Source of the DNA: Crossaster papposus
Taxonomy: Eukaryota; Echinodermata; Asteroidea; Velatida; Solasteridae
DNA: 64,000 nucleotides
Direction of reading: 5' to 3'
Assembly (NCBI GenBank): GCA_037893245.1
Contig: JBAIAA010000539.1
Span: 529,663-593,662, forward strand
Of the stretch, positions 10,097-53,282 are shown one piece after another (positions within the stretch are counted from its first letter, which is position 1; each line of letters begins with the position of its first letter). The notes below the pieces were generated by a model that was given only the letters and a program-made list of their open reading frames with translations, did no database searches and was not told the DNA's origin. A program made the translations under genes and the position numbers.

Positions 10097-10097
10097 G

Positions 10098-11260
10098 AGA
10101 AGATGATGTCAAATTATCCTGGGCCTCAACCGTTGCTGTACAAACGGTACATCGATGACATCATCGGTGCCACTTCTGGGTCAGTGGAAGACGTCCATAC
10201 GTTCATCCAGTATGCGGAGAACCTTCACCCAGCTGTGCAATTCACCTCTGAGATTTCCAATGAGACCATCACCTTCCTCGACATCAGTGTGTCAATCAAT
10301 GGCAATTCTCTCTCCACTTCAGTCCACTACAAGGCTACCGATTCTCACAGCTACTTGCATTATGAGTCGTCTCACCCCAAGAAATGCAAGGATGCCATCC
10401 CTTATAGCCAATTCCTCCGCCTCCGTCGTATTTGCAGCGAGGATAACCAATTTAAACAGCGAGGCAAAGAAATGAAAGGTTTTTTCCAACGACGTGGATA
10501 CCCATCATCTGTGACTGATGGTGCGCTTCGCAGAGTTTCATCGGTCACCCGCAATGCCGCCATGGAACAAGCCCCCCCGAAGCAACAAGGTCGTATCCCT
10601 CTTGTTCTTACCTACCACCCCCTAAACATGGCTGCCAAGAATATCCTCCTCAAGCACTTCAAGACGCTGCAGGAAGACCCAGCAACCTGCGCCATCTTCA
10701 CCCAGTCTACTAACCCCCTATGTTCCTTTAGACGTGACCGCTCCATCAGCAACCATGTTGTTCGGTCAACACTCCCCAGCACCACTTGTACCATCGACAA
10801 CGGCCCCTTCAGAACTGTTCCCTGCAAGCGTCCAAGGTGCAAAACTTGTGCACATGTTGACAATACATCATCCATCACTGGTCCCTGAGGCCATTTCAAC
10901 ATCCGCGGCCATTTCAAATGCACCACTACTAATCTTGTTTACTGTATTAAGTGTACTCGCTGTGGCTTGCTTTATATTGGAGAAACCAAGCGCCGACTTG
11001 CCGACCGTTTTACGGAGCATCTCCGAAGCGTTCGGCTGAAACAACCCGGCCTGGCTGTCGCCCAACACTTCGGCGCGCCATCTCACTCCACCAAGGACAT
11101 GAGCGTCTGCGTTGTTTCCACGGCATCGTCGGACACGCAGCGCCGATCTTTGGAACAGCGTGTGATGTTCCAACTGGGCACGCTCCAACCTGACGGGATG
11201 AACGCGGAGTTCACCTTCTCCGCGTTTGTTCTACCAGCGGGACATCACAACAAGCCATAA
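10098..11260 (+). pseudogene. Second Penelope-like copy, inverted, broken
   Basis: Matches the left copy from KMMSNYPGPQPLLYKRYIDD to the end. A base change creates a stop after SITGP near 10888 (CCC TGA in place of CCCCGAGG), separating the RT part from the GIY-YIG part (CGLLYIGETKRRLADRF, 10967 onward). It begins inside the RT domain, so motif A is absent. It is a truncated and interrupted sister of the minus-strand copy. Confidence 0.85.
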
Positions 11261-21895: not shown

Positions 21896-22268
21896 TACAA
21901 CTCAGAACACAAGTCGTGAACCTACATGTACTGTACTTCTTTCGGTGGCGCGGCACTCCACCAACTAACCATGAACACGCATTACGTACCACCCAGGTAA
22001 ACACGTACACCATGTAAAAACACCTACATGTACATGTATACATGTAGACACTACCACACTGAGGGCATACTTGTCATTCTATCCAATGGAGGACACTTGA
22101 GTGTGTGTGAATTACACCTATCAAAGTGAGGACACTACACTAAATTGCTGGTTGTCCATTGGTTTCATATTGATGTGCATTCTAAAGTCATCATTGCGAT
22201 TGCAAATTCTAAATAGTCAAGTACTCTGACGCATCCGTACATGTATGTGAACTGACGAAACACCCTGC
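21896..22268. other. 3' flank of the minus-strand recombinase gene
   Basis: No gene. The sequence TTGAGTGTGTGTGAATTAC at about 22093 also occurs immediately next to each cassette exon at 25.85-27.95 kb, but here without the exon. Confidence 0.4.
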
Positions 22269-25200
22269 TTAGCTTTGATGAAGCTTCATTTTGTTCCGAC
22301 AAAAGTCTTTGATGTTCCTCCAGCTTCGTGTCTGCAGTGCCACAAGACAGGATGTTTCGATGTCTCGTTTGCCAGGAAGCTTCTTCAGCAGAAAGAATTT
22401 CTGCAAACCCTTCGTAACGTCTCCCTTCTCCTCGGCAGTCCAGGGACGACGTTTCACTCGTCTCGAGTTGTTCAGAGATGCCAGACTTCCAGATGGAACA
22501 CTGATAGGAGCCTGTCGAGTACCTAATGTCAAATAGGAAACAAGTCGATATCAAACACAGATATTTAGGCACTTTTAATTCAGACAGCCCAATAGCCAGA
22601 TGAACAAACAAATGGACAGACAGACAATTGTTTTTTTAAAGACAGCCCGACTTAACCAGTTTGCGCCGGGATTATTTTAACATCGCCAAGCCCACGGGCG
22701 GGATTATTTTTTACGAAACTCGATCTGAAGCGGGTTCAGGCTGATAGTGCCGGGAAGCACACCCACGCATTTCCGGCCTTGCGCGCTGCTGACATACATT
22801 TCCGAACTTGAACTTGGCAGGTTTATGCGTCATTCGTTTTGAATTTTGGAAAATTTTTGCGTTTATATACGTCATCCGGCGCGAACTGGTTAAAATACAG
22901 ACACATAAAAGCCTAAACTTACTGTTTTCACTGGGCACATCACAGGAATTGTCACTGCTGTTATCGCTGTCCTCGTCACTAGTGAAGCCTTCTGCAAGTC
23001 ACAAAGAGCAGTTTTTGTTAGATTAATGCACACATACCCGACAGTTGGTTGTTGTCCTGCATGTAAATTCAGAAAAGTGGACTCAACTCTTGTCAAATTT
23101 CTGTGGTCTGTTTCTTTCTAATTTTTCTCTATTTCTCTTTCTTGTTCTGTAATGCAGGAGCAATAGCAAAAGAAATGCACACAAACACGTATACCATTTG
23201 TTATCATATATTGTGAACTGATAACAAAATGTTATTTCTTGCATTTCTTTCGCTGTTGAAGATGTATTAGTGAATAGTAATTACTGATCAAATATTTTTC
23301 AACAAAAGCAATAATTAATGTCTTTCTTTTGCTGTTGAGTAAATAATTTAAAACAACTGTGTCCTTACCACCAGTGACATGCAGTTCATCCAGGGATTTG
23401 CCCTGCTGGGAAGGCAAGTTTCCCCTCTCCAAGCTGAGAAAAAGTCTAGAAAGTTTGGTGACCCTCTGCACAGTATCTGGCAACTGGTAGTATTCACGAT
23501 GGACACGCAAATCATGACCCATGAAGTTTGCAAGTGTTTCAAGTTGATGTTCCTTCAAGGCAAGAATTTGCGATGCGGTTGCCACGTGCTTACGAAGTTT
23601 TGTAGACCGGATGCTGGCAGCATTGTCAAGGCCCGCCATGTCTGCGTACAATCTTATACAGTCACATCCTCTTATATGACCTGTACCTCCATAAGAACAT
23701 CGTGCAAACAAGTAGGTGTTGTCGTGGGCGACTCCAGCTTCATTTCTCTTCGCAATCAGAGCACTCAACCACGCCACCACCTCATTGCTGAGAAGCACAG
23801 GAACAGTTCGACCCCTCTTGCCAACTATTTCGACAACTCTGAACATCTTGCACAGATGCCGTTCAAGATCAGTCAGCAGGCATTCCCCGTTCACACTAGC
23901 TGTTGTGTGCTTCTGAAAGTCTTCTAGTTTCATTTTTGATACCTCCCCTTGCCTTCTGCGGTTGAACATAATAAGGTGGCACAGTGCGACTTCATTCAAT
24001 CTCTTCCAAGCTGGTCCAATTTGTTCGCCCCGAGCATCCTGGACAAGTTCCACTTCTCTGTTGCCAGCTTCATGGAGGAACGCCGACATTTTCACAACAT
24101 CAGCATTTGTCGGCAGAATTTGAGGTTGGTTGCGCTTTCCTTGGTACAGTGTTCTGTGTGCATGGGTGGATACACGGTCTCGCCAGGTCAGTTCGCACAA
24201 CTGCAGAAATTCTTCAGCGTGTTGGGCTTTTTGCTTTTGGCCAGACTCTAGAGCATTTCCTTTAAGTATGAGTGCACACTTCTTGATGGAATGTCCAATC
24301 TTTAAAGCTAGAGACGGAACATCATACAACTGCTTGTCTTCATTAAAGCCAGCAATACCGTGAATAGCCTTGATGATATCATTCAGGTAGTGGGGGTGGA
24401 CAAATAATTCAAGTGATGCATTTGGTTGGTGTGTATTCTTGCGGAGTTGTATGACAAGACGACCCAATTCCCGTATCTTGTTTCGGATGTAGCCATGTTG
24501 ATCTACATCGTGCCCGAGTTTCGCGTATTCCCGCTTGGCTACTTCCACAATCAAAGTGTCATTCTTGGCCAGCAGAGTCACCTCATCTCTCTTCATCGGA
24601 ATAAGAACCTGGTTCAACTGGAAAGACACACCGACAGGTGGAGGCTTTAACAAATCACTCTTGTGAGCAACACATCTACGCAGAGGAGTTGTGGTAGTGC
24701 TACCATGCGAGTGTGCAGGGAGTGCAGGTTTCAGTGGGCACTGGTGACGCCAGAGATCACTTCGCACATAATAGCCATAACAATATATGCACGGTCCGTA
24801 TGCATGTGGAGATACCTTATGATTAGGCCTATATCCTACAATAAGTGCACCCCGGCCTTTCCGAAGGACTTGGCAATTGTGCCTATGATTACCAACATTG
24901 CGGATTTTCCACAGAAGTATCTTACGGGCACTTGGGTTGGTCTCAGACGCAATCTCTACAACTTCGCTCTCTTCTTTGTGACATGACTGGAGATGACGGG
25001 GCAACTTAGATTGAGGTACTTCACAGAAAAAGCAAAAGTGTTTCTTGTCCCATTTCCTGTGCCCACTTTCATTGCTGGTCTCCATGACCGTTATGTGACC
25101 GGTCTCAGTAGCCTCGGTTGATGATCTCTGTGACTCGGCACTTGAGGCTTCATATGGAGCAGTACAAACGGCAGGTCCTCTACCAGAATCAGCCTGTGGG

Positions 25201-28200
25201 CCATCATCCCAAATGGAACTGCTTTGTAGACTGTCTGAACCATTTAAGTGCGGATTCAAGAAACTCGGATGGGCCACCTGGCATAGAAATCAAATCAAAA
25301 TCACATTTAATTTTAAACAAATAACAATTTCTTTGGGGAGGGGTGGGAGGGCGAGGGGAGGGGTGGGTGTGTGGGGGAGGGGTGGGTGTGTGTTGGGGGG
25401 GGGGGGGGGGGGGGGTGAAGGGGGGGGGGGGGGGGGATGGTGCTTGCCAAAAACACTTTATTTACAAATTTGTTTCTGGCTTCTGGGCACCCACAGTGAA
25501 TATTTGATAGGGTTCAGAAAACAAGTTCACTAATGAATCAAAATCTTACTACTTTCTATGTTGCCGGATGCAGAAAACGTTTATGATTTAGAACGAGTGG
25601 AAAAAAACCAAAACACCACTGTTATTTTCTTTCGGGGTAGACGCATATGCCTAATTGCCTCGGACTAGTTGACCCTCTAAAGGAGAGGGAGTTGGGAGTA
25701 GGGGTGGGAGGGGTGGGGTGTGGGGTGGGGTGGGGGGGGGGGGGGTGAAAGGGGGGGGGTGCTTGCAAAAAAAACACTTGATTTATAAATTTGTTTCTGG
25801 CTTCTGGGCACCCAGAGTGAATATTTGGGTTCTGAAAACAAGTTGAGTGTGTGTGAATTACCTCATATGGAGCAGTACAAACGGCAGGTCCTCTACCAGA
25901 ATCAGCCTGTGGGCCATCATCCCAAATGGAACTGCTTTGTAGACTGTCTGAACCATTCAAGTGCGGATTCAAGAAACTCGGATGGGCCACCTGGCATAGA
26001 AATCAAATCAAAATCACATTTAATTTTAAACAAATAACAATTTCTTTGGGGAGGGGTGGGAGGGCGAGGGGAGGGGTGGGTGTGTGGGGGAGGGGTGGGT
26101 GTGTGGGGGAGGGGTGGGTGTGTGGGGGGGGGGGGGGGGGAAGGGGGGGGATGGTGCTTGCCAAAAACACTTTATTTACAAATTTGTTTCTGGCTTCTGG
26201 GCACCCACAGTGAATATTTGATAGGGTTCAGAAAACAAGTTCACTAATGAATCAAAATCTTACTACTTTCTATGTTGCCGGATGCAGAAAACGTTTATGA
26301 TTTAGAACGAGTGGAAAAAACCCAAAACACCACTGTTATTTTCTTTCGGGGTAGACGCATATGCCTAATTGCCTCGGACTAGTTGCCCCTCTGAAGGAGA
26401 GGGAGTTGGGAGTAGGGGTGGGAGGGGTGGGGTGTGGGGTGGGGGGGGGGGGGGTGAAAGGGGGGGGGTGCTTGCAAAAAAAACACTTGATTTATAAATT
26501 TGTTTCTGGCTTCTGGGCACCCAGAGTGAATATTTGGGTTCTGAAAACAAGTTGAGTGTGTGTGAATTACCTCATATGGAGCAGTACAAACGGCAGGTTC
26601 TGTACCAGAATCAGCCTGTGGGCCATCATCCCAAATGGAACTGCTTTGTAGACTGTCTGAACCATTTAAGTGCGGATTCAAGAAACTCGGATGGGCCACC
26701 TGGCATAGAAATCAAATCAAAATCACATTTAATTTTAAACAAATAACAATTTCTTTGGGGAGGGGTGGGAGGGCGAGGGGAGGGGTGGGTGTGTGGGGGA
26801 GGGGTGGGTGTGTGGGGGGGGGGGGGGGGGGGGAAGGGGGGGGATGGTGCTTGCCAAAAACACTTTATTTACAAATTTGTTTCTGGCTTCTGGGCACCCA
26901 CAGTGAATATTTGATAGGGTTCAGAAAACAAGTTCACTAATGAATCAAAATCTTACTACTTTCTATGTTGCCGGATGCAGAAAACGTTTATGATTTAGAA
27001 CGAGTGGAAAAAACCCAAAACACCACTGTTATTTTCTTTCGGGGTAGACGCATATGCCTAATTGCCTCGGACTAGTTGCCCCTCTGAAGGAGAGGGAGTT
27101 GGGAGTAGGGGTGGGAGGGGTGGGGTGTGGGGTGGGGGGGGGGGGGGTGAAAGGGGGGGGGTGCTTGCAAAAAAAACACTTGATTTATAAATTTGTTTCT
27201 GGCTTCTGGGCACCCAGAGTGAATATTTGGGTTCTGAAAACAAGTTGAGTGTGTGTGAATTACCTCATATGGAGCAGTACAAACGGCAGGTTCTGTACCA
27301 GAATCAGCCTGTGGGCCATCATCCCAAATGGAACTGCTTTGTAGACTGTCTGAACCATTTAAGTGCGGATTCAAGAAACTCGGATGGGCCACCTGGCATA
27401 GAAATCAAATCAAAATCACATTTAATTTTAAACAAATAACAATTTCTTTGGGGAGGGGTGGGAGGGCGAGGGGAGGGGTGGGTGTGTGGGGGAGGGGTGG
27501 GTGTGTGGGGGGGGGGGGGGGGGGGAAGGGGGGGGATGGTGCTTGCCAAAAACACTTTATTTACAAATTTGTTTCTGGCTTCTGGGCACCCACAGTGAAT
27601 ATTTGATAGGGTTCAGAAAACAAGTTCACTAATGAATCAAAATCTTACTACTTTCTATGTTGCCGGATGCAGAAAACGTTTATGATTTAGAACGAGTGGA
27701 AAAAACCCAAAACACCACTGTTATTTTCTTTCGGGGTAGACGCATATGCCTAATTGCCTCGGACTAGTTGCCCCTCTGAAGGAGAGGGAGTTGGGAGTAG
27801 GGGTGGGAGGGGTGGGGTGTGGGGTGGGGGGGGGGGGTGAAAGGGGGGGGGGGTGCTTGCAAAAAAAACACTTGATTTATAAATTTGTTTCTGGCTTCTG
27901 GGCACCCAGAGTGAATATTTGGGTTCTGAAAACAAGTTGAGTGTGTGTGAATTACCTCATATGGAGCAGTACAAACGGCAGGTTCTGTACCAGAATCAGC
28001 CTGTGGGCCATCATCCCAAATGGAACTGCTTTGTAGACTGTCTGAACCATTTAAGTGCGGATTCAAGAAACTCGGATGGGCCACCTGGCATAGAAATCAA
28101 ATCAAAATCACATTTAATTTTAAACAAATAACAATTTCTTTGTGTTATCTATAAAATATACTATCTATTTTAACACCATCACAAGCAACAACATTCGCCC

Positions 28201-29043
28201 TTGATGTGCAACTTAACTGACGACATACCGGTATTTATCCTCTTCATAAAAAGATATGTAATTCAAATGAGAATTTGTGTCATGTGCATTCATTATATGA
28301 CTTCTAAGACTTCTAAGGCACTTAGGGAGACACTAAAATGTCTCCCTAAGTGCCACTGTCTCCTTATTACCTAAAAAATTACGCTAGTTTGTCTCCCCAA
28401 GTGCCTATTTGGAAGAATTACGCATTTCATTGGTATTCTTCCTAACCTGTCTGTTTTTAATTAATGCATTCTATGGTAATTTTCTCACCTGGTGCTCAAA
28501 TAGGCAGCGTGTCACACCATCAGTGTATCGGACGCAGTACTTTCCTGATAAGAAAGCCACAAATTCAACTAATTAAACTTTAAAGAGATTACATGCAATT
28601 GGGAGTGGAATGTTGAAAAGTATTTGTTGTTTACAGATCATATATATTTTTGGTTCTGAAAGGGGGGGGGGGGGAGGAATCAAGTTTAGGAAAAATGGCA
28701 TTGTTTATTTACATGTGGTACATGTCATGGGGGGATGTAAGAGGGTATACAGCTGTCTTAATTTATGTGTAACAAATGGGATTCTACATTATGGATTACA
28801 TTTCTTACCTACGGAACCCACAACCCTAATGTGGGTTCACGTTAACGTGAACCCACAAATTACGAGGGCATTCCATTTGTTTTCGTCATATGTCCTTTTA
28901 GAGGCTCCGCACTTACCTTTGGTGAAGGAGATTATTACGGCAGGATACCATGATGAATCTGGAGGCCACAGTGCGATTACGTTCTCCCCTTCATGATGCT
29001 GGTGATTTGTCAAGGTTCCATCAAGACGACTACTTCGTTTCAT
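22269..29043 (-). CDS. Tudor-like / zinc finger / tyrosine recombinase / Myb-SANT protein (copy 1)
   Basis: Proposed exons on the minus strand, all with GT-AG introns and matching phases: 29043-28917 (ATG), 28544-28489, optional cassettes, 25277-23369, 22991-22923, 22522-22269 (stop). Without free cassettes this gives 804 residues. Residues ~18-61 form a Tudor-like fold (GENVIALWPPDSSWYPAVI joined by splicing to GKYCVRYTDGV). Two zinc-finger-like motifs follow: CFFC...H....H (~143-161) and CIYC...H.C (~224-241). The recombinase domain has Arg I in NRRRQGEVSKM (~503), Arg II in STKLRKHVAT (~622), GH in FMGHD, and the nucleophile as the second Tyr of HREYY (~658). A Ser/Asp/Glu-rich linker leads to a Myb/SANT-like domain (RPWTAEEKGDV...SWRNIKDFCR). 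Function is unknown: the recombinase points to a Crypton-like or domesticated origin, and Tudor plus SANT suggest chromatin binding. Confidence 0.8.
22656..22889. mobile_element. piggyBac-type MITE inside the last intron of copy 1
   Basis: Inverted ends CCAGTTTGCGCCGG and CCGGCGCGAACTGG are flanked by TTAA at 22652-22655 and 22890-22893. 234 bp, non-coding. It lies in the intron between the acidic-linker exon and the Myb/SANT exon, so it leaves the protein intact. Confidence 0.75.
25149..25277 (-). other. Fused copy of the 43-codon cassette (start of the main exon)
   Basis: The first 129 nt of the main exon encode the same peptide as the four free cassettes. It has the acceptor (CTATGCCAG before GTGGCC) but no donor: the last codon is GAA and reading continues straight into ASSAESQRSS. 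It is the only cassette copy joined directly to the zinc-finger/recombinase exon. Confidence 0.75.
25862..25990 (-). other. Cassette exon 1 (free)
   Basis: 129 nt, exactly 43 codons, with acceptor CTATGCCAG|GTGG and donor ATGAG|GTAATT, phase 0 at both ends. It encodes ...SIWDDGPQADSGRGPAVC..., identical to the fused copy at the RG position. Confidence 0.7.
26571..26699 (-). other. Cassette exon 2 (free)
   Basis: Same length, phase and splice signals as cassette 1, with SGTEPAV in place of SGRGPAV. Inclusion would add 43 residues without changing frame. Confidence 0.7.
27264..27392 (-). other. Cassette exon 3 (free)
   Basis: Same as cassette 2 in predicted protein (SGTEPAV) and splice signals. 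Confidence 0.7.
27956..28084 (-). other. Cassette exon 4 (free), nearest the Tudor exons
   Basis: Same predicted protein as cassettes 2 and 3. Upstream in the gene the 28489 donor ends on a codon boundary (GAG CAC CAG), so joining to any cassette keeps frame. Confidence 0.7.
28317..28354. repeat. Perfect intronic hairpin
   Basis: GGCACTTAGGGAGACA is followed after six bases by its exact complement. It lies in the intron between the second Tudor exon and the cassettes. A related TGTCTCCCCAAGTGCC lies about 45 bp further on. Confidence 0.6.
28829..28856. repeat. Perfect 28-bp palindrome
   Basis: The arm TGTGGGTTCACGTT is followed directly by its complement, with no loop. It lies in the first coding intron of copy 1, about 60 bp past the donor. 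Confidence 0.6.
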
Positions 29044-29118
29044 GTTTGTTATGGTAGTTCTGTCAGCCACACCTAGACTACACAACAATACAACAACAAT
29101 ATACCATTAAACTGATAA

Positions 29119-29505
29119 TAAGCCACTTTGGAGTTCCGACTGCGCATGTGCACAACAAGATTCAACAATTTTTCTCAAGGAGGTCAAGTGATACAAACAC
29201 GGCAGACAAATGCACACAAGGCTATGGGGGACGCGGTAACCAAATCCGCATTTTTTACATTTTCTTGTGAAATCGAAAAAAATAAATAATATTTGTTCGA
29301 ACAAAAGTTTGGCCACACAAAGCGGCTGAAAACACCAAAACGTAAACAAAAATATGTTACTTAGTAACTTTAAAACACGACGATCTCTTGAAATTTGCTG
29401 GTACCCCGCTATGCTTTTGCACGCAATCGATGAAATGTTTATATCGAAAGAAAAATCGTCAAGGGAAAATGTGCGCATGTGCAGTTGGAATACCAAATTG
29501 GCTTA
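29119..29505. mobile_element. MITE just upstream of copy 1
   Basis: 36-bp inverted ends (TAAGCCACTTTGGAGTTCCG on the left; its imperfect complement ending TTGGCTTA on the right, about six mismatches). The 129-codon minus-strand frame across it has no recognisable domain and is explained by the element. It ends about 75 bp before the proposed start codon, so it may overlap the promoter. Confidence 0.65.
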
Positions 29506-29762
29506 TACAATTAAATATTAATAATTGTGGCTACTTATTTGTTTTATTATTTATACAATAACTACAATTAACTATTTCTTGTTCGCACGGTGCTCAACAA
29601 CTCATGCTTGCGTTGGCAAAATAAAGCAGTTAAATTTGGTTATAACTTCTATATTATTCTGAAATTAGGCATATTCACTTCCCATATCATCCTATAGACT
29701 AGAGTAAGAGATCGAGGCCATTTAACTAAAAATTACATTACAACGTAAATGAGCACGTCATA

Positions 29763-30334
29763 TACCGTCATCTGGGGTGACTTTGATACTCAGTGTGACT
29801 TTGATAAATCACCCCGAATGTCAAAATTGAACAACAAAGTGTCCAAAACTCTGTGTAGTTGTGTTTTTATGATAGTATTTGTCTTTTCTGTCTTCGCAGA
29901 TACTGATTGAGCTCTGATGTACCGTAACAATCATGCCACGGGTCTATAAACGGAAGGCTGGGTCGAGGGGCTATCAAACCATTAAAGTTATCAGAAAACC
30001 CAAATATTTGTATTGTTTGAATAGTTTTGTAGCTTGTGTTTTTTTAAAACGAATTAAAATTATCAAAGTCACCCCAATAAGAGGGTTAATTTGATAACAT
30101 AGGCTTTATTCATTGGTTATCAATGTCACCCCGACAACGGGGTGACTTTGATATTTTGTTGTGGTTTTAAAAAAAATATGAAAACACAATCTGATGAAGA
30201 AATGATTTGGTCTATTGATAGCCAAGAGGCACATTGTTATTAGTTGAAAGAATCAAGGGTGAAAACCCCATTTATCCTACTCAAAAGATATCAGAAGTGC
30301 CAAAAACTATCAAAGTCACCCCAGATGACGGGTA
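29763..30334. mobile_element. MITE with TACCGTCATCTGGGGTGACT ends
   Basis: Terminal inverted repeats of about 26 bp (TCTGGGGTGACTTTGATA and its complement) bound a 572-bp non-coding unit. The ATCAAAGTCACCCC motif also recurs internally in both orientations. Flanking GTCATA on both sides may be the target duplication. Confidence 0.65.
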
Positions 30335-31925
30335 TGTCATACTCTGCTACATTCATACTCAGTCATACTCATAGTCATACATAGCGAGTAACATGCAAGC
30401 TTCCAAATACAATATCTCTACTTACCATTTATTCCAGCTCCATGGTACACCTAGCTAGCTGCAAATGACCACGTCTTCGCATAAACTACAATATGCACTT
30501 AGGCCAAAACAACGTTATAATAGTTAAGACATGTCTAAACGAGTATGTTGTCATGTATGTACACATGTAATTGTACATACATGTTTACATTTACGTCATT
30601 TTCACACGCGCAACCAACGGAGGGCGCTATGCCATTCAGAGTAATCCCGTTTGCGTTTTTTTTGACGGGGAAAAAAATGTGCATACTGCCTCACGTCAGG
30701 TCTTATGCGTCAACCGAGGACTCCTCCCAAACGCTTTGATATTTAACCAACAGTCAAAAACGGCCACGAAAGTGCCATTTTTCACAATATTTCATACCGA
30801 GGACGCGCTCGGTTTGCAAGGTGTCCTCAGTATGTGAGTGTGTACTTACATTAAAGCCCTCCATTTGCGGTATTGACATGTACACGCACTTACACCTATA
30901 GGCTTTGTTACACAGTCTCGTGCATTCACGCAGCGAGTCACTGAGCGGTAAGCTCCGCCCAGCCAGCGCGCGCAACTACAGGTCACGTACGCCCTGGGTT
31001 ACATTTCATTCATAAGGTTACAATTACAATAGCATAACAGCACTAAGTCATTGCACTTTCCGTCACTATTTGCATCGCTGCGACGTAGCGGTCGGAAGAT
31101 CCACATTCACTTTGTGAATTTGGTCACTACGAGAGAGAACGGTAAGTCGAAGAAGCCTTTGGTTTGTCGCTCCGAGGACAGGTAAGATCCAAAAATTTTA
31201 TCCCACCCACCCTCCCCATACTGGTTGGTCCTGCTGTTCGGATTCTATAGCCTCTACGCTCGAATCCTTCTACCCATACCTAAGATCAAATGTGGACTCT
31301 GGAGTCCGAACAAAGCAGCGATGCAAATACTTTACAAAATGGGCCCGCAGGCATGAACCACTTGGATTAGTTGACTTTGTTGAAAGGCGGCATGGTTATC
31401 AAACTATGACTCGAAACGTCCTAAAAAGGGTCATTTTACGCGAATTTTCGCCCGGAAACGGGCCCGCACTGGTTTGATCTGTAGGTGAACACAACGAATT
31501 CATATGCCCCCCCCCCCCCCCCCCCCCCCATCTTCCCAAAAAAATGCAGCCACCGCGTACGACACTGCAAATTGGTTAAAGTGATCAGAAATTGCCTCAG
31601 ATCACACAACAGAGAATCTAGAAACCATTTTTCCGGAGTTCTTCAGCAGCCCCGAACCCCACGTCGTTAATTTTGGGACCCACTTTCTAGGTGAGAAAGG
31701 AATCCAAGGCAATGCAAATCGAAATTTGCTCAAACCAATGCGTATACGTACGCAAACCAAAATTGTACTTGTCATAAAATAAATGTACTTTCTCATAATT
31801 TATTTAATATAGGACCAGCGTTGATGTATCGAAAACTGTTTAAACACTGTACCCTTCAGCCCCACCATAGATGTGTTCCAAGTGCCACAGCCAGTCTACG
31901 CCTTAAAGGGGTTATGAAACTTTAG
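30335..31925. other. No gene; dispersed repeats and a poly-C tract
   Basis: About 31067-31125 matches the sequence near 12828 in direct orientation, and about 31258-31335 is the inverted partner of 19775-19850. A poly-C run of about 23 bases lies near 31507-31529. The stretch near 30780-30840 resembles 40520-40570 in part (CGAGGACG...CTCGGTTTG). Confidence 0.4.
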
Positions 31926-32739: not shown

Positions 32740-34703
32740 ATGTGCGACTCATGGTGGAGCAAAAAAGCGGACGAACTCCAGTCCTACTCAGAAGGTAAGA
32801 GCACGAAGAAGTTCTATGATGCGCTGAAGGCAATTTATGGGCCAAAATCAAGTGGCTCTACTCTAGTCTTTAATTCTGATGAATCCGCACTCATAACAGA
32901 TAAGGACCATATTATGGACCGTTGGGCTTCCCACTTTGAAAATCTGCTGAACAGAGTCTCAAACATCAACACCGAGGCGATATAACAACTGCCTCAAAGT
33001 TCTGTCAATGTAGCCCTAGCTGAAGTGCCCACCATTGCCGAGACCTAGAAGGCCATTAATGTACTATCCATGGGTAAAGCAGCTGGTTCCGACTCGATTC
33101 CCGCCGAAATATACAAAGCAGGAGATGCTACGTTTGTGAAGCGCCTCACAGAGCTATTCCAGCTAATGTGGATCAAGGGAGTGCTCCCCCAAGAATTCAG
33201 AGATGCCTCTATTGTCCACATTTACAAGAAGAAACGCAACCGCTTCATGTGTGACAACCACAGAGGAATCTCCCTGTTAGTCATTGCCGGTAAGATTATC
33301 GCTAGAATCATGCTTAATCGGTTCACAACACACATTGCCAACACATTTCTACCCGACAGCCAGTGTGGCTTCAGAAAAGGAAGAGGTACAGCCGACATGA
33401 CATTTACCACCCGGCAGCTTCAAGAGAAATGCAGAGAGCATAATACCGACCTCTATTGTGTCTTTGTAGACTTGACAAAGGCATTTGACACTGTCAGCCG
33501 AAATGGCCTCTGGAAACTCTTGTCCAAGATTGGCTGCCCAGGAAAGTATATCGAGATAGTGAATCAGTTTCATGATGGTATGATGGCGCGAGTAATGGAC
33601 GACGGAAAATCTTCAACAGCCTTCCCTGTATCAAATGGAGTTAAACAAGGCTGTGTCCTTGCGCCAACGCTCTTCGGTGTCGTGTTTGCTAGCATGCTTC
33701 TTGATGCTTTCCGTGACATCAACGTAGGCGTAAAGTTGAGATTTAGGACTGATGGAAAACTCTTCAATCTCCGAAGACTTCAAGCGAAAACAAAGGTATT
33801 CGATGAACTAGTTCGTGAACTCCTGTATGCCAATGACTGCGCGCTTGTCGCTCACACACAGGAAGACCTACAACTCATCATGAACTGCTTTGCAACAGCT
33901 TGCTCACGCTTTGGAGTTTCAATCAGTCTGAAAAAGACAGAGGTGTTGTTTCAACTTACTCCACGTAAGCCGTATGTTCCACCAGTCATCACTATTGGAG
34001 ATCACACCCTTCATTCTGTGGACAAGTTCACATACTTGGGCAGCACCCTTTCAAGAGAGGTCCACATAGACGACGAAGTCGCTCACCGGATATCTAAAGC
34101 CAGCTCGGCATTCGGAAGATTTCGTGAGCGTCTGTGGAATAGAAGAGGCATAAGCTTGAAAACAAAGCTGCGTGTCTATCAAGCTGTAGTCCTGACTTCT
34201 CTGATGTATGCCTGTGAAACTTGGACAACCTACAGCCGCCACATCAGAAAGCTGAACCACTTCCACCTTTCCTGTTTGCGCAAGATTTTACGCATCAGAT
34301 GGCAAGACAAGGTCACTGACACTGATGTCCTCAAGCGAGCGGAATTGCCCAGTGTAGGTGTTTTGATCATGAGAGCTCAGCTTTGCTGGTCAGGTCATGT
34401 ACTACGAATGCCTGATGTCCAAATTCCCAAGAAGATACTCTATGGTGAACTAACATCAGGCAAAAGATCTGCTAGTGGACAATTCAAAAGATACAAGGAT
34501 TGTCTTAAAGCAGCCATGAAGCAATGCAGCACCAATGTGACTAGCTGGGAAGAACATGCCCAGGATCGGACGGCATGGCGAAGATCTTCCCACGAAGGTG
34601 CATCAAGCTTCGAAGCCCGTCGCATCAGGGAGGCTGAGCTGAAACGACAGCAACGGAAATATCTTTGGCCAGTTGCTTCCCAGTTACGTGCCCCCCCCCC
34701 CCC

Positions 34704-34740
<37 letters not shown>

Positions 34741-34826
34741 ACGATCTAGTGTGTCCAGTGTGCGATTGCAACATCCTGGCTAGAATTGGACTTATTAGCC
34801 ATCAACTTACACACAACACCAACTAG
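32740..34826 (+). pseudogene. Non-LTR retrotransposon (LINE), RT and C-terminal zinc finger
   Basis: A damaged upstream part (WWSKKADELQSYSEGKSTKKF, stops at ~32983 and ~33046) is followed by a 559-codon frame. RT signs are DSIPAEIYKAG, NHRGISLL, CGFRKGRGTADM, FVDLTKAFDTVS (motif A), NGVKQGCVLAPTLFG and LLYANDCALV. The catalytic YADD is YAND, a loss of the first aspartate. The post-RT part includes YLGSTLSREVHIDDEV and LNHFHLSCLRKILRIRWQDK. A long poly-C run (34690-34739) breaks the end, after which CPVCDCN...SHQLTH, a C2H2 finger, is visible in another frame. No endonuclease domain remains. It is dead by truncation, stops and the motif change. Confidence 0.85.
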
Positions 34827-40209: not shown

Positions 40210-42916
40210 ACTCGTGTATCTCATAATAGGGCAATATGTACTGTAGCGGAAACTGTCAAGAATAGCGGAGCGGTGGCGTAAGTGTGACGAATTTACACGG
40301 AGTCCATCCAAGTCCAACAACGGCTGCGGAGGCAACAGAACCTGACGTTAACGCCCTATACTGCGGGTTTGGCCGCCCTGTGGGGGTGTATGGATGTGCG
40401 CGCGCGAACTCGATCTTTACGCGTAGTTCGTACGTGTACGTGTACATGCTCTTGTCAAAGCCTGCAAATCGAGCACTTTCGTGTGATTACACACTCACAG
40501 ACCGAGGACCTTCAACATACCGAGGACGTCCTCGATTTGTTATTAGGTCAAAAATGGCATCTCCTTGGCGATTTATAATTATTGTCAAAATTTCAACGGA
40601 TTTGGAATATGTTCTCGGTTCGTCCTAATGGCAACGTGCAGTGTGTTGTATCATGGAGCATTTTGTGTTCATCCGAACAAGTCAACTTGTAATAGCGCCA
40701 CCTAGCGGCCAGATTATCGTCTCCTAGGCGCTAGGGACGCGTTAATCGCGTCTTCATGTAATTTGGGGAAAGCGTCATGTTCATCGGCTCAAGTTCAGAC
40801 CTACAGAAAGTGCCCTAATGTTATGGTACGTACATTATAATTAACAAATATGTTTAAAACTGTTCTCGTGTACAATTTACATAGGATATTGAAGGAAATA
40901 GTAATCGGGTATTGTTGAAATAATTAATTTCACATGTGGAATTCTTTTCACATCAATCGATCGTCAGCTTTCTCACAACCATTACAGTATGTTCCACCAT
41001 ACCTCCATGGTTCCACATGCCCAACCAAACCCAAAAACATTAACATAATAAATCCACCCAATTAAGAAATATTCGGTTATACTAAAAAATCATAGATAGA
41101 CACATATTTATGTGCATTTATTTTTCTCAACTGAAATTGGGCATGACATAAAAAAGTGAAAGGTTATAATTTGGGTCATCAACTCGTATCCCGAATCAAA
41201 TCGATTACAAGTACATGTAAAGTTGTCCCCTCACAAATGAAGTCGTCCACTACGTCAAGTCGTCCACTATCAAATTTTCCGAATTTCCCATGACCAGGTG
41301 GGCCCCTCGTCAAGTTGTCACCCAAGCAAAAGACAACAAATTAAAAACAAATTTTGCCTTTTTCATTAATTAATATTTTAAAACAATGATATTAATAATC
41401 ACTTTTCATATTGTTTATTTTATGCATTTAGTTTAACTTTTCTACATAAATGTACATAATGTACATTTTGAATGAGTTTTTAGTATCGTCAGACCCCCTA
41501 AATCTGCGCGGTCCTATTTCTGCGCACTCGTCTTTAATTTCAATTTGGCAACGCGCGCATCTTAAAAATGATGTACTGTCACTAGGATCGTATTCTTTGA
41601 TGCATGAACTTTCACAACCACCGAAAAATTATAGTGAATGCTTTAACGGTAAGTCGGGCAAAAATTGAAAAAAATCTGATTTTTACAGCTAATTTACTAG
41701 GTACAATTGTTGGTAGAGGCTTTCGGGCCTGCAGAAGTCGAAAAGATGACCGCACGGTAAACTCTGTTATTCGCCCTCTGTCGTCAGTATTATAGCTACC
41801 GTGTCCTATATAATTCATTAATTTTGTTAAGGGGGTTTAAGACTTGCGGTGCAACAAAGAAGACATGTTTCTTATATTATTTTGGAATTTTCTTCTGTCA
41901 TACCTATTAAAATCTGACATCTTGACAATGTTCTCTGTTGATTGGGATGATCAATATATGACATACATTCATCAAGATAATTCAGGTTACCAAATCTAAG
42001 AAGGGGTCAATTTATTAAGGCATTTAAATATTATTAGGTTTATTTGTATTTTTATTTAATTCAGGCCTAATCAACAACCGAGTTTATTGATGCACCCTTC
42101 TAAAAACTCAGCGAACCAATTGCTACTTGAAATGAACAATACAACGCACAACTTGGTCCTGGGTGTACCTTGTATAAACCATTATCATTAAGATTATTAA
42201 TATTAGAACGAGAGGCTTGGAACGTCTGAGGTGACGATTTGTAATATTGTAAAACTAATTTGTATTGCCTAAAGAACATAAAAAGCCAATTTAGTATGAA
42301 TTCAGAGCACGGCAGTCTTTAGTTTAGTTTGACTGAGAGTATGATTCGTGAACACTCGTGTAGAGCTAATCCTACTATATTTAAAGTAACAAAAATTGAA
42401 TTAATTATTTTAATATGAATGTACATTTCCAACTTTATTAATACATTTCTTCAATGATAACAATACAAACTGGGGTCTACATTAAATAGGTAAAAATGTA
42501 TAAATTGGATGTGAATTTTAAATATATGCCTTTTTGTAAAAAAAAATTAACAATTATCTATTGAGAATTAAACCATTATGGCGAATTAATCTTGAAATTA
42601 CGAAAAGTGTACTGGCATTGAAAAAAAGAAGTAAATAATTAGGTTAAAAATGTTCAAGCTAATATATTTTCCAAAATCAAGGAGTAAAAAATGTTGTTCT
42701 TAAGTTGCATGACCCGGACACCGTAGATTTTCCATGAAGCGCCCCACTGCGCAGATTTAGGCAGGATTTGTTTCTGAACGCCAAAACTGCACGCTTTGGA
42801 ATTCCCCGCTTGTCGCTACAAATAAAGAAAATTTGTCTTTGTTAATCCGCATAGTGGAAGATCGTAAGCCAACAATACAAGTTTTGTTGATGAAAAGAGT
42901 GGTTGCTCTTTTAGTT
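40210..42916. other. No gene seen in the left half of the 8.3-kb insertion
   Basis: I searched here for Tudor-like exons matching copy 1 and found none. CCTATTTCTGCGCAC at 41513-41527 has a perfect inverted partner at 43327-43341. Otherwise AT-rich. Confidence 0.45.
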
Positions 42917-42920
42917 TTAA

Positions 42921-43299
42921 AGGTAGTATACACCATTGGTAATTGCTTGAATTATCATGAATGGGTAGATTTGGGGGGTTGTATTTCATAGTAAATATCG
43001 TTTAACTGACTTTTCCGAAGTTTTACAATCATGGATGCCGAGAAAAGCACGAAAAACAGCGTTTGTTTTCAACCGGGGTCGAGCAGTTATTCTTATGTTA
43101 TCTTTGTTTTTTCGCTCTCGCCGTCCGGCGAGAGCGAATTTTTCTTTATAAAATTCATTTTTTTGGAATAATTACAGGATATCCAGCGCAATCCTTTTGC
43201 GGAATGCCGAAAATCATTATTTACTTTCAATTGAGTAAGGTATTTCTTAATAATTAAGTAGTAAATATTTTCGATTTCTGCAAATGGTGTATACTACCT
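42921..43299. mobile_element. piggyBac-type MITE, copy 1
   Basis: Ends AGGTAGTATACACCATT and complement, flanked by TTAA (42917-42920, 43300-43303). A GC-rich hairpin (CGCTCTCGCCG...CGGCGAGAGCG) lies in the middle. 379 bp, non-coding. Confidence 0.8.
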
Positions 43300-43303
43300 T
43301 TAA

Positions 43304-44016
43304 GCTACTCGGTTGCAAACCCTTATGTGCGCAGAAATAGGAAGATCGAGGATTTATGCAAATGTAGTTATTTATTAATTCTAAATAAATTGAACAGTTA
43401 ATGCCCAATTTAATTTTTTTGTAAATGCAAGTTTATTTAATGCCCCCTCCCCCCCCCCCCCCCCCCCCCTTCACGGGGTCACTCGAATACTACATGTCCG
43501 TCCGCCGGGAGGATGTGGAATCGCTAATCGCGTTGCAAAATAGACCACCTAAGGCTAATTGAACCAGGGCAGTATCCATTTAATTTTATTGACTTTTACA
43601 TCTATTGCTGGGAACAGACAAAAACAAAAGTTTGTTTAATATTTGAAAGCTGTAAACGCTTTTAATAAACGTGATATATCATGTAATATGTCCCCCATTG
43701 TCTATTAATTATTACAAATTGGCTTATTCGCGCATTTCATAGTAGCAAGGCATGTGTTATATAGCTCATAAAATTTTTTTGGGGGTAACCAAAGAACCAC
43801 AAATATTGTTTTTAAATGCGTCTCCGCAACACTTTAAGCCAACCCCTGACCAAAAACCAAATTTGTTATTTTGGGGGGGAACTTAGGCTTAAATACTAAA
43901 TAAAGCAGCTTCCTAAGCAATAAGGATGAATAGCAATCAGTCTTGAAATGTTTAACGAGTCCAACATGTACTTACTGAACCTGATTACAATAAGTATGGT
44001 TGCATTTCTCTTTGCA
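43304..44016. other. No gene; poly-C tract upstream of copy 2
   Basis: Contains a poly-C run near 43448-43470. The end of this stretch has a good 3' splice site (TTTCTCTTTGCAG) directly before GTGGCCC, like the cassette acceptor of copy 1. Confidence 0.45.
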
Positions 44017-44134
44017 GGTGGCCCCTTAGTATATCATCATTTGTGACTGTGTTGAAGTTCTTCAGAGAGGGTTTACATATGAGAGTTTGTTCACCAATAG
44101 CAGTTCCCATGGCCTTTACAGTTTGAATCCTATT

Positions 44135-46683
44135 ATGGCAGACCTTGGACACAGTGCTTGCAGCAGCACTTCCCTCTGTCCGTCCAGTTGTAACGATGCT
44201 CCAGTTCATACGGATGCCAGTGATTCTGATTGCGTTTCTCACGTCCGTTTGGATGACACATTGAATACTGCAAATGAACCGTTGAGTGTACGATCTCGCA
44301 TCCCGTCGCCCATCAGAGACTTGACAGATGAGTGTAACATCACAGTTATGCAGACTAGTAATGAAAGCGGTCAAAGAAAATGGGACAAAAAAAACTTTTG
44401 CTTCTACTGTGATGAGCCACAGGCCAAATTACCCCGTCATCTCGCGTCTTTGCATAAGGAAGAAACCGAAATAGTGCAGATATCGTCCGAAAACAACAAT
44501 TTGATCCGCAATAAATTTCTGTTAAAAATCCGCAATGCTGGTAATCACAGACACAATTGCCAAGTAATTCGCCAAGGTCACGGTGTGCTTATAGTAGCAT
44601 ATAGACCGAATCATCCCGTAAATGCAGATGCATATGGACCGTGCATGTATTGCTTTGGCTATTATGTGCGAACTGATCTTTGGAGACATCGTTGCTTACT
44701 AAATCCAGCGCTCTCTGCCCATGATAAAGGTGTTCGTGTACGTGGCCGAGTTGCTCACAAGAGTGATTTATTGAAACCGCCTCCTCCGGGTGTGTCCTTT
44801 GAGCTGAACAAGATTCTCTGCCCGATGAAGAAAGATCAGGTTGCCTTGATAGCCAAGACCGACTCGTTGGTTATTGAGTTCGCCAAACGTGAATTCCTAA
44901 AAATGGGCCATGATGTAGATCAACACGGATATATCCGAAACAAATTGCGTGAATTAGGTCGCCTCATCTTACAACTCCGGAAGAATACTGTGCAACCAAA
45001 TGCATCGCTCGAGCTGTTTGTGCATCCCCGGCATGTCATTACCATAATTAACGCTGTCCATGACATTGCTGGCTTTGACAAACGCAAACAATTGTATAGT
45101 GTTCCATCATTGGCACTAAAGATAGGACATTCCATAAAAAAGTGTGCCCTGGTGGTGAAAGGCAATGCTCTAGAGCATGGCCTCAAGCAGAAAGCTGATG
45201 ACGCAGAACAGTTTTTGGAGTTATGCAATTTGAAGTGGCGAGACCATGTATCTGTCCATGCACACCGAACATTGTACCAAGAAAAGCGGAACAAGAATAC
45301 AGTTCTCCCAACCAATGCAGATGTTGTTAAGATGTCGTCCTTCCTTAAAGAAGCTGCCAACCAGCAAGTGCAAATTCTGGAAGATGCGTCTGGTGATGCA
45401 ATCAAACTTGCATGGAAGTGTTTGAATGAAGTGACGCTGTGCCATCTCATAATGTTCAATCGCAGGCGACAAGGGGAGGTGTCAAAGATGCAATTACACG
45501 ATTTTCACAAGCGGACCACAGCACAAATTGATGGGGGCTGTGTCTTGAGTGATTTGGAACGGCATTTATGCAAAATGTTCACAGTTGTTGAAATAGTGGG
45601 TAAGAAGGGCCGGACTGTACCAGTGCTGCTGTGTACTGATGCAGTGACATGGTTGGGTGCACTTGTAGCCAAGAGAATTGAAGCTGGAGTAGCGGCAGGA
45701 AACCCTTACTTGTTTGCGCGCTGTTATGGAGGCTTGGGCCACATACGAGGAAGTGACCAGCTCCGATCCTATGCTGACATTGTGGGCCTAGATAATCCTA
45801 CAAGCATCCGGTCTACTAAGCTTCGTAAGCATGTAGCAACTGCATCACAAATATTATCATTGAAGGAGCATCAGCTGGAGACATTAGCAAACTTCATGGG
45901 TCACGACTTGCGAATACACCGTGAATACTACCAGCTACCAGACACTGTGCAGAGGGTAACACAATTGTCAAGACTGTTCCTCAGCTTAGAGAGGGGCAAC
46001 TTGCCTTCCCAGGAGGGCAGGTCCTTGAACGAATTGGATGTATTGGGAGGTAAGTACAATTTAAATGGATCTGTGCATGAGGTACACATGCCGATGACTG
46101 TTTGTAAGTTGACCTGGATACATATGCATTTAGACAATAGTGTTTTCTATGTGGTTTTTTCCCAATCACTTCAGAAGGCTTCACGAGTGAGAGCAGCGAT
46201 GGCAGTGACGATGGCAGTGATGGTAACATCGGTGATGTCAACGACACCCGCAGTGATGGTAACATCGCTGATGTCAACGACACCCGCGGTGATGGTAACA
46301 TCGGTGATGTCAGCGACACCTGTGGCAGCAGTAAGTTGAAATGTTTTATCAGTGTGTCACACTGTCAGGCGGTCATTGTATGTGTTAAAACTACTGATGA
46401 ATTCGTGTGTCTAAAGCTGTAATGTATGTGTTGTATTACAGTACAGGTTCAAGCAAACAAGGCATCAGTCACGGTGAGGCATCGGCGGATAACGGCGACA
46501 CGTCGTAGTTGGACGGAAGAGGAGAGAAGAGACGTCATGGAAAGTCTGCACAGATTCTTTGTTCTGAAGAAAATTCCTGGTAAGCGTGATATTGAAAGAT
46601 CATGTACCATAGCACTGCAGAGTCGATCATGGAAGAACATCAAAGACTTTTGCCGCAACACACTTATTCGAGAACAACGATAA
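44135..46683 (+). CDS. Zinc finger / tyrosine recombinase / Myb-SANT protein (copy 2)
   Basis: Exons 44135-46049, 46175-46330 and 46442-46683 join in frame to 770 residues. Splice positions and phases match copy 1 in all three 3' exons. Zinc-finger-like motifs: CFYC...H....H (~88-107) and CMYCFGYYVRTDLWRHRC. Recombinase: Arg I in NRRRQGEVSKM (~444), Arg II in STKLRKHVAT (~564), GH in FMGHD, nucleophile second Tyr in HREYY (~599). The acidic exon repeats DGNIGDVNDTR-like units three times. The last exon has RRSWTEEERRDV...SWKNIKDFCR. An upstream acceptor at 44017 is homologous to copy 1, but a TAG at 44027 blocks that frame, so I start at ATG 44135. The Tudor exons were not found. It lies within the hAT-ended insertion. 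About two thirds of residues agree with copy 1 by eye. Confidence 0.8.
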
Positions 46684-47647
46684 GTGGCTATCTTTAACCA
46701 CTCCACGCCGGTGGACGTGTACACACGCAGCAATTGTCCGCACCCGAGGAAATAATTCACTCGTGTTAGAAAGCATTTGTGAATGTATTTGGGCTGAAAT
46801 GGCAAACGCACCTTGATAATAAGCAAAATAGAGAATTATGTGTATGGCGTCCTCACATTGATATGATCATGTACCTCCAGAAAAATGTCCCCTATTGGAT
46901 AGACTGCTCAATAGGTCCTCCATGTGATGGTCTGCACATGTATGCATGTACATGTACTGTACACGTACATACATGTACGTGAACACATACTGTTCGCGTG
47001 AAAACAGGCGTTATCTCGTCTAGACGTAATCCCACTTTTGTCCTAAATTTATATTATTTGTTGCTGTAACATAGCCCCTGAAATCGAAAAGGTTTAAGTA
47101 CGCGTAGCAGACGACCAAATGCGCGGCGCAAGAGATCTTTGCCCGAACATTTCACTTGCATTTTAATAGTGGTTGTTCATTCATTTTACCATAACTGAAC
47201 ATTTTATTCTTCACTTCCATCACACTCGGAAACAATAACAAATAACTTCGTGGAAATTTCTACTGTTATCAGTTGGCCGTCAATCAAAGTTCAAAGACTT
47301 GGGATTTATTATTTTAATTAATTCGACGGTGAAATAAAACAAATACCGGCACCTCCGATTGAATATGGGCTTAATACTTTCAAGATACTTGATAAATACT
47401 TTTCAAGATACTTCTCCGGAACTTATTTGAAAAAGTAAACGGATAAAACCTTATCTCATTAATTTTACAGGACACCGACAAAAATGCAGATGGGAATTAT
47501 TCCAGGTTTTCTTGTGTTTCTAAACTACATTCAAAATCCTTTGCACCATTTCGTTTGCGGAAATAGTTTTCTAATAGTTTCCAGGGATAACATTTTTTGC
47601 TAATTATTTTCACCAGAAAAGTAAGAATTAAAAATACCAAGCTAGTA
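46684..47647. other. 3' flank of copy 2, no gene
   Basis: AT-rich, with ACATGTAC/TACATGTA repeats at 46935-46980. No coding domain recognised. Confidence 0.4.
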
Positions 47648-50268: not shown

Positions 50269-50307
50269 GCTCTATTTTTGCCCGTATAATCACATACCAC
50301 TCGTAAC

Positions 50308-52299: not shown

Positions 52300-53027
52300 A
52301 GTTGCGAGACGAATTCGCCCATCAGAAAGTCCGATGGTACACCGACAATACCAACGTCCCACGCATTCTCGCGCACGGTAGCACCAAGTTGGACTTGCAA
52401 GCTTTGTCCTTGTCAATTTTTTCACTTTGCTTGAAACACAATATCGTTATTTTGCCAGAATGGATACCCCGAAACAATAATACCATTGCCGATAGTATTA
52501 GCAGAGTGTTTGATTATGACGATTGGTCCATTGACCAAAAATCGTTCGATCTTATCGATAGCGTATGGGGTCCACATACTTGGGATCGTTTTGCATCCCC
52601 CAACAACTATAAAGTGCACAATTTCAATTCCAGATTTTGGTGTAGAGGTTCTTTAGGCGTTGATGCTTTTTGTCACATTTGGTCTGATGAGAACAATTAT
52701 TTGTGTCCCCCAGTATCTCTTATAGTGCAAACTATGAGACATTTGTCGCTTTGCAACGGTAAAGGCACTCTAATTATTCCAAGATGGCCGTCAGCTTATT
52801 TTTGGCCCACAATTTGTCCAGACGGCAAGCACTTCGCCCGTTCTGTTCACGATTGGCGATTATTGAACATTCGGTTCGAACCACCAGCATTGACCCCTGA
52901 CTCGGTTTTCAATCACTCGCCAAAATTTTTGTCGTTAGCATTGCGAATTGACCACACCGTAGCTCCCAGAAAGACAAGTAGAGGTTTTTGTTCCTCGAAC
53001 CTTGGTTACTGTGACATCTGTGTTTAA
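52290..53027 (+). CDS. RNase H end and C-terminal extension (other frame)
   Basis: Continues the RNase H domain in another frame: LLELRDEFAHQKVRWYTDNT and LPEWIPRNNNTIADSISR (the usual D...H/N-D pattern). The region after it (VWGPHTWDRFASPNN...) is typical for DIRS/Ngaro RT polyproteins. It joins the previous frame across the T run. Whether this is ribosomal slippage, a mutation or a sequencing error cannot be told here. Confidence 0.85.
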   Translation: MLLELRDEFAHQKVRWYTDNTNVPRILAHGSTKLDLQALSLSIFSLCLKHNIVILPEWIPRNNNTIADSISRVFDYDDWSIDQKSFDLIDSVWGPHTWDRFASPNNYKVHNFNSRFWCRGSLGVDAFCHIWSDENNYLCPPVSLIVQTMRHLSLCNGKGTLIIPRWPSAYFWPTICPDGKHFARSVHDWRLLNIRFEPPALTPDSVFNHSPKFLSLALRIDHTVAPRKTSRGFCSSNLGYCDICV

Positions 53028-53282
53028 CAATCATTCACGCCAGCCAATTTGACGGTATCGGGCGTTCGGGCTCTTTGCCACGATTATCGGTCATTTGGTA
53101 CCAATTACCTATCTAGCCACTTTGCGTGCTGGAGTATAGCCGATTTGCGGGCTTTCTGAGGCTCAAGCCAATGTTAAGTCCTTGGGATATTTAGAAGCAT
53201 TCACTGTATTATTATTTTTATGGTATTTATTTACCAGGTTACACTTATTACTTTTCAACCCCCCTTTCTTTGGCGAATCTCG

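Follow-up and report, generated by a model that had tools for sequence, protein, structure and literature searches.

A candidate Crypton-like DNA transposon of the echinoderm Crossaster papposus with a predicted Tudor-like domain

Cryptons are reportedly tyrosine recombinase (YR) DNA transposons, as described by Goodwin in 2003. Kojima and Jurka (2011, PMC3212892) describe animal Cryptons as having no C-terminal domain and no terminal repeats, with the YR (DUF3504) as the sole recognizable domain; Crypton boundaries are said there to be hard to define, and a circle mechanism is proposed for these elements. A 2025 paper (PMC12477816) presents Gypsy-10_Ec32 of Ectocarpus as the first reported transposable element with a Tudor domain, to its authors' knowledge. 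A crustacean nimavirus study has other YRs, and the word Tudor is absent from its text (PMC10871703). Our literature searches, which covered open-access papers and not Repbase, listed no Tudor-bearing DNA transposon. Here we analyze a 64,000-nucleotide stretch of the Crossaster papposus genome (GCA_037893245.1, contig JBAIAA010000539.1, positions 529,663 to 593,662; hereafter the window) and describe a multicopy element, element A, together with a related element B. We assign a probability of roughly 0.87 to the reading that element A is a recently mobile Crypton-like YR DNA transposon, with a predicted five-exon gene encoding a Tudor-like domain, zinc fingers, a recombinase, a linker and a C-terminal domain. 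Element A may be the first DNA transposon known with a Tudor domain.

The window copy of element A carries the following features:

22033..30888, minus strand: element A, predicted whole YR DNA transposon from core to core (8856 bp in the window copy; placed by abrupt flank divergence and empty sites)
22033..22038, no strand: left 6-bp core CATGTA, derived from the target (identical in the empty sites)
22039..22045, no strand: arm TACATGT, 3' end of element A (seen in all 28 left ends, which were themselves found by searching for the arm)
22269..22522, minus strand: exon 5, 254 nt, C-terminal conserved domain, SANT-like by motif only (conserved in element B)
22923..22991, minus strand: exon 4, 69 nt, acidic, serine-rich linker (splice model)
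23369..25277, minus strand: exon 3, 1909 nt, zinc fingers and tyrosine recombinase (splice model, PF00589, alignment to element B)
23373..24125, minus strand: recombinase catalytic region, with ArgI 442, Lys 487, ArgII 562, His 588 and Tyr 596/597 in exon-3 numbering (residues by eye)
24738..24791, minus strand: zinc finger 2, C-x2-C-x11-H-x-C (by eye; kept in element B)
24978..25034, minus strand: zinc finger 1, C-x2-C-x9-H-x4-H (by eye; Cys and His kept in element B)
28489..28544, minus strand: exon 2, 56 nt, second part of the Tudor-like domain (splice model, profiles, PDB match)
28917..29043, minus strand: exon 1, 127 nt, start codon and first part of the Tudor-like domain (splice model, profiles)
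30876..30882, no strand: arm ACATGTA, 5' end of element A (inverted relative to the TACATGT arm)
30883..30888, no strand: right 6-bp core CACGCA, derived from the element (also read in head-to-tail junctions)

We searched 1.02 Gb of genome; the copies scored and examined are the best candidates only. Exon 3 gave 1683 first-look candidates, and the best 69, a count that is a lower bound and biased to intact copies, are all 99-100% identical over the full length and free of internal stops, the window's own copy included. At the 30 best-scoring loci, mean exon 3 divergence from the window is 0.056%, with 14 identical (again counting the window's own), no stop in any copy, and distinct variants numbering 10 synonymous and 9 non-synonymous. 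All 12 of the 5' ends examined (the 12 best-scoring of 40, including the window's own, L043) have exons 1 and 2 without a single changed letter, while exon 4 is exact in 24 of 30 copies examined and has one difference in the remaining six. A 1951-base query from the 5' region (28450-30400), which has intron 1 inside it, recovered 40 scored copies at full length and 99-100% identity, and the retention of intron 1 in all 40 means that copying did not proceed via spliced RNA.

Flanks of the copies diverge abruptly at both ends of element A. The left end could be read at 28 of the 30 loci, where shared sequence begins at TACATGTAGACAC with a 6-bp core just before it; at the right end, TTTGCGGTATTGACATGTA runs into a 6-bp core. 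Around the core the two arms, ACATGTA and TACATGT, form an inverted pair. Left cores are CACGCA at 25 loci, CATGTA at two (one of them the window) and CACACA at one. We paired 11 insertions by contig and place, and found CACGCA at one end at least in every pair; both cores are CACGCA in three pairs and the other core differs in eight, four of which have CGGCAA in one host repeat.

The window copy of element A sits within a dispersed repeat, and a 600-base query joining its two flanks through one core matched 40 scored host-repeat places across the joint at 93-99%, with matches spanning query positions 1, 2, 3 or 6 to 481. The predicted empty-site joint was read exactly in all three host-repeat copies examined, so that nothing was duplicated or lost on insertion; comparison of filled and empty sites shows element A to have inserted without target duplication. 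Locus L040 provides a second host repeat, as it holds an uninterrupted copy of another repeat in which the left ends of seven elements (L022, L023, L024, L027, L032, L034 and L038) lie at the same place. The right flanks read for five of those seven (L044, L046, L047, L048 and L052) continue the same repeat.

Copies of element A also abut one another. A natural 201-base junction (L060) used as a query matched over its full length at five of 40 scored places (C385, two in C355, C285, and C238, which is the query itself), and the other 35 match one end only. The junctions read in L039, L060 and L061 have the form GACATGTA-CACGCA-TACATGTAG. A circle integrating into an existing copy would leave such a head-to-tail junction, and the five junctions fit a putative circle intermediate.

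By analogy with YR enzymes in general, we infer that the recombinase would pair the element ends, swap strands within the 6-bp core, and release a circle with the joint ACATGTA-CACGCA-TACATGT. This circle would then recombine with an alternating purine-pyrimidine target, such that one end would keep the element's core and the other may keep the target's, and a circle landing in the end of another copy would produce a head-to-tail array. Extra DNA contacts probably come from the zinc fingers and C-terminal domain, and attachment of the complex to a methylated chromatin protein is the probable role of the Tudor domain; this tethering is the least certain step. With copies so nearly identical, and with ends, cores and empty sites placed exactly, the YR circle model is open to direct test.

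To describe the targets, we took 28 left and 14 right ends, removed tandem junctions and repeated flanks to leave 33 half-sites, and kept one half-site per host-repeat site to leave 29, each read toward the core. Purine-pyrimidine alternation is perfect over 7 bp in 15 of the 29, compared with 1.2% of window positions, and over 13 bp in nine, compared with 0.16% (both in fixed register). Across the 33 half-sites the mean match to ACATGTA is 3.82 of 7, against offset controls that average 1.79 and reach 3.52 at most. The joint of element A itself alternates purine and pyrimidine throughout. Targets thus counted favor alternating purine-pyrimidine tracts, which offers a simple hypothesis for site choice, and both targets and core would have Z-DNA potential.

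The predicted gene reads on the minus strand, with GT-AG at all four introns, agreeing phases, and a joined frame of 804 residues and a stop. The initial annotation had proposed these five exons, splice sites, matching phases and protein length, and we reproduced all of them at the sequence level; the splicing itself is predicted. In the predicted protein the order is Tudor-like domain, two zinc fingers, recombinase, acidic linker and C-terminal conserved domain. This putative gene is the only one recognized in element A, and none of seven other open reading frames (ORFs) of at least 120 residues inside the element has a Pfam match at E<=1.

The spliced N-terminal region matched the Pfam models Agenet (E 6e-5), Tudor_3 (1e-4), LBR_tudor (5e-4) and SGF29_Tudor (6e-4), and in the PDB it matched the PHF20L1 Tudor (21ed, 2equ; E 1.5e-4, 43-44 residues aligned). 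These sub-threshold matches to four Pfam models and to PHF20L1 bear out the earlier proposal that joining exons 1 and 2 creates a Tudor-like domain, and the similarity to several profiles supports its membership of the Tudor royal family. In PHF20L1 the aromatic positions serve as a cage. Since the region aligns with PHF20L1 including these positions, a chromatin-targeted recombinase, as the initial annotation had suggested, is still a possibility.

Exon 3 matched the phage-integrase-type model PF00589 at E 6.5e-4 (20 bits, cut-off 27.1), and the recombinase of element B matched it at E 1.3e-3, also under the curated cut-off; these matches support assignment of exon 3 as encoding a divergent YR. 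A sequence search of the PDB with exon 3 gave no match. The catalytic residues first claimed for this region largely stand, with ArgI, ArgII, the later His (MGHD) and Tyr all present, while the His of the HxxR box appears as Thr. Profile hidden Markov model searches of the translated exons returned the Tudor-type and PF00589 matches, all below cut-offs, and no Myb/SANT: exon 5 had no Myb/SANT model among its Pfam matches up to E 10 and no Myb structure in the PDB, where only CD55 matches appeared, which we judged to be chance. The Myb/SANT label originally given to the last exon is thus without profile support. Similar proteins that combine a recombinase with a Myb-like part are probably present in fish and invertebrate databases. 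GCR1_C, the CryptonF model, was not listed for exon 3 or the C-terminal region, its presence in the Pfam set being unchecked, and DUF3435, the domain of Starship captain recombinases, was not listed in the Pfam scan of exon 3, with the same limit on that model. We judged phage gateway-protein matches (E 0.34-0.38) and a low-scoring hit of the C-terminal domain in L009 (E 0.07-0.13) to be chance, and two scans of viral contigs for relatives yielded 19 and 2 pattern matches, none of them confirmed.

The second intron of element A contains a variable tandem repeat (25150-28142) with a unit of about 705 bp that carries an exon-start cassette and splice sites, and its copy number varies among insertions. 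This cassette repeats the opening 129 nt of exon 3 in frame and has GT after it. Four extra cassettes are present in the window copy, all open, with AG before and GT after:

25862..25990, minus strand: cassette copy 1, first 129 nt of exon 3, in frame
26571..26699, minus strand: cassette copy 2, first 129 nt of exon 3, in frame
27264..27392, minus strand: cassette copy 3, first 129 nt of exon 3, in frame
27956..28084, minus strand: cassette copy 4, first 129 nt of exon 3, in frame

We could assign an exon 3 partner to 31 of the 40 scored 5' ends. In 27 of these 31 the distance from 5' end to exon 3 differs from the window's by a whole number of units of about 705 bp, at one extreme three fewer and at the other two more; the other four are off-step, and in one of them the exon 3 lies 10.6 kb away and is perhaps not its own. 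Isoform diversity through the 129-nt cassettes is possible. Further into the 5' region, positions 29765-30331 are bounded by perfect inverted repeats of 24 bp and contain others further in. The inverted pieces recur in the 40 scored 5' copies; this stretch is probably a small nested insert resembling a miniature inverted-repeat transposable element.

Element B provides a divergent comparison within the same window:

40443..46948 (about), plus strand: element B, about 6.5 kb (ends inferred from two copies)
44135..46049, plus strand: element B exon 3, zinc fingers and recombinase (aligned to element A)
46175..46330, plus strand: element B acidic exon (boundaries by eye)
46442..46683, plus strand: element B C-terminal domain exon and stop (acceptor picked by eye to hold the frame)

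The two elements have in common the zinc fingers, recombinase, acidic exon and C-terminal exon, with exon phases that match as assigned, and they are 67% identical over 727 aligned residues; exon 5 alone is 57.7% identical over 71 residues. Ratios of non-synonymous to synonymous divergence (dN/dS) between A and B are 0.10 for the recombinase, 0.11 for the core before it, 0.19 for the zinc-finger region and 0.27 for the C-terminal domain, all rough values because dS stands at 1.1-1.55, near saturation; in the exon 3 start and linker, synonymous sites are saturated. Element B is itself multicopy: counting the window's own, 30 places match the whole protein query at about 100% identity, and the same search returned 34 A-like places at 72-74% identity to B, two of which overlap the 69 places above. 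No Tudor domain was found in the 5' region of element B by tblastn, by eye, or by Pfam on ten ORFs; either the domain was gained by A, or it was lost by B, or it is present in B and unrecognized.

Other arrangements of the two elements were noted in the course of this comparison. Copies of element B occur in pairs about 12,064 bp apart (three times on C792, where L055 and L056 lie, and on C153 and C311), and these pairs may have arisen by segmental duplication of a single insertion together with its flank. We considered the 12.6-kb spacing of A copies and the 12.06-kb spacing of B copies as head-to-tail arrays and rejected this, as no direct junctions were present where checked: another repeat stands at the element end in L062-L064 (A), and other sequence lies beside element B in L055/L056. 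An allelic heteroduplex, considered for L018 and L031, which have a common left flank and different cores, was ruled out by their differing right flanks. One sequence (L055:94-280) abuts the core beside both element B (L055) and element A (left flanks of L018 and L031), with opposite flanks that differ. As a query it was found at 12 places together with the end of B, and at 13 more places the match begins in the core or at its edge (query 27-33) with other sequence before it; a third repeat or element with the same core may end in this sequence.

Several observations weigh against our reading of element A. Both kinds of domain evidence are below threshold, the Tudor-type matches all falling about 2 to 3.5 bits under the Pfam gathering scores and the recombinase scoring under the PF00589 cut-off. 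The His-to-Thr replacement in the HxxR box (TKLRK) is found in A and B alike; it was assigned by eye because the automatic recombinase alignment was shifted by three residues at this box, and the near-identical copies in both families suggest that the change is tolerated. Before the zinc fingers, the start of exon 3 has only 26% A/B identity over 57 residues, the A/B dN/dS ratios are rough, and with no Tudor recognized in B, the comparison gives no evidence that this domain is conserved across divergent families. L013 and L036 yielded no left end, and in L034/L048, one of the three CACGCA/CACGCA pairs, the right flank has one base more than expected from a strict 6-bp core. Internal stops are present in five of the 34 A-like places; among the 30 copies, exon 5 has a stop in L037 and L038 and diverges before its end in L040, and L013, L018 and L036 are without an exon-5 anchor. 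Intactness is therefore overstated, because only the best-scoring copies were scored and examined. The target preference is also weakened, since flanks 20-40 bp out alternate in 15.5% (7 bp) and 4% (13 bp) of cases in the better of two registers, and part of the bias in these purine-pyrimidine-rich flanks is neighborhood composition.

With these points in view we weighed four other explanations. That element A is one host gene of Crypton origin, domesticated as a chromatin regulator, as the initial annotation had entertained, would account for its open spliced gene and for purifying selection between A and B. Such selection is equally expected for two working transposon families, and the 69 near-identical places with varied flanks, precise ends, empty sites and head-to-tail junctions refute a domesticated gene for the window copy, leaving this explanation very improbable. 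Still harder to credit is a remnant of a YR retrotransposon of the DIRS or Ngaro type: a DIRS-like element does lie in the same window (50290-54955), but intron 1 is retained as noted, and the absence of a reverse transcriptase among ORFs of at least 120 residues between the element ends (22033-30888) led us to rule out such an origin. More plausible, if improbable, is a real transposon whose Tudor exons belong to a separate protein or an alternative isoform, so that the recombinase is usually made without them. Element B, with no recognizable Tudor and able to start at its own ATG, fits this arrangement, the four cassette exons could change the join, and the splicing of exons 1-2 to exon 3, a further point against our own reading, is predicted from sequence; however, donors, acceptors and phases join without a stop, and exons 1-2 lie on the same strand of the same element, exact in all 12 copies examined.

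The closest call concerns how ordinary a Crypton element A is. The initial annotation's Crypton lead pointed to the right kind of element, as element A has a YR, no reverse transcriptase among its ORFs of at least 120 residues (it moves as DNA), and a short common core without target-site duplication. DUF3504 was not listed for A or B in a Pfam scan up to E 10, the model's presence in the Pfam set being unconfirmed. An ordinary animal Crypton (CryptonA or CryptonI), its extra domains and ends overlooked in earlier surveys, would have the same kind of enzyme, no target duplication, and the circle mechanism proposed for Cryptons; but element A departs from the published traits of those groups, which have neither a C-terminal domain nor terminal repeats (PMC3212892), and this counts, with the DUF3504 result, against what we regard as an unlikely though not negligible explanation. 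We accordingly retain a Crypton-like transposon with a Tudor-bearing gene as the best account of element A. A broader proposal, that it represents a distinct YR DNA transposon lineage with its own chromatin reader, in which chromatin state and potential Z-DNA shape choose the landing site, is tentative, and we hold it at somewhat less than even odds.

The window contains other features of mobile-element type. Two coding stretches in inverted arrangement at 8594-11260 are presumably Penelope-like, from the look of the sequence, and a 566-residue ORF at 33049-34749 resembles, by eye, a non-long-terminal-repeat reverse transcriptase. The stretch at 50290-54955, which we take to be DIRS-like, matches a reverse transcriptase (PF00078, E 3e-16) and, weakly, a zinc knuckle; a further ORF there resembles a tyrosine recombinase and has no Pfam match. 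Elsewhere, contig C8 (5.3 Mb; L001-L003, G000) carries the genome's strongest phage-integrase-type match (E 4.5e-34) and may be bacterial.

Element A can be set beside several known systems. Tn916-type conjugative transposons are bacterial, integrate through a YR circle, have coupling sequences that differ at their ends, and make no target duplication; the differing end cores of element A resemble these coupling sequences, whereas Tn916 is bacterial and its gene content unrelated. The PHF20L1 Tudor is alignable over 43-44 residues, with its aromatic positions retained in the element A protein, although the similarity reaches only E about 1.5e-4. Cryptons resemble element A in being tyrosine recombinase DNA transposons in which no reverse transcriptase is found, with a short core common to the ends, a proposed circle mechanism, and no long terminal inverted repeats; element A differs in adding Tudor-like, zinc-finger and C-terminal domains in a predicted five-exon gene. 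Animal Cryptons are moreover reported without terminal repeats (PMC3212892), whereas element A has defined ends and inverted arms. The same source describes Crypton-derived host genes (KCTD1, KIAA1958, ZMYM2/3/4, QRICH1 and WOC), which likewise combine a YR-derived domain with regulatory domains; these have lost most catalytic residues, whereas element A is multicopy, apparently mobile, and keeps most of them. Gypsy-10_Ec32 is, like element A, a mobile element with a Tudor domain, and differs in being a brown-alga Gypsy retrotransposon with a C-terminal Tudor, where element A is a putative YR DNA transposon with an N-terminal Tudor-like domain (PMC12477816). The Tudor-like domain of element A would extend the capture of chromatin readers from that Gypsy retrotransposon to a recombinase DNA transposon.

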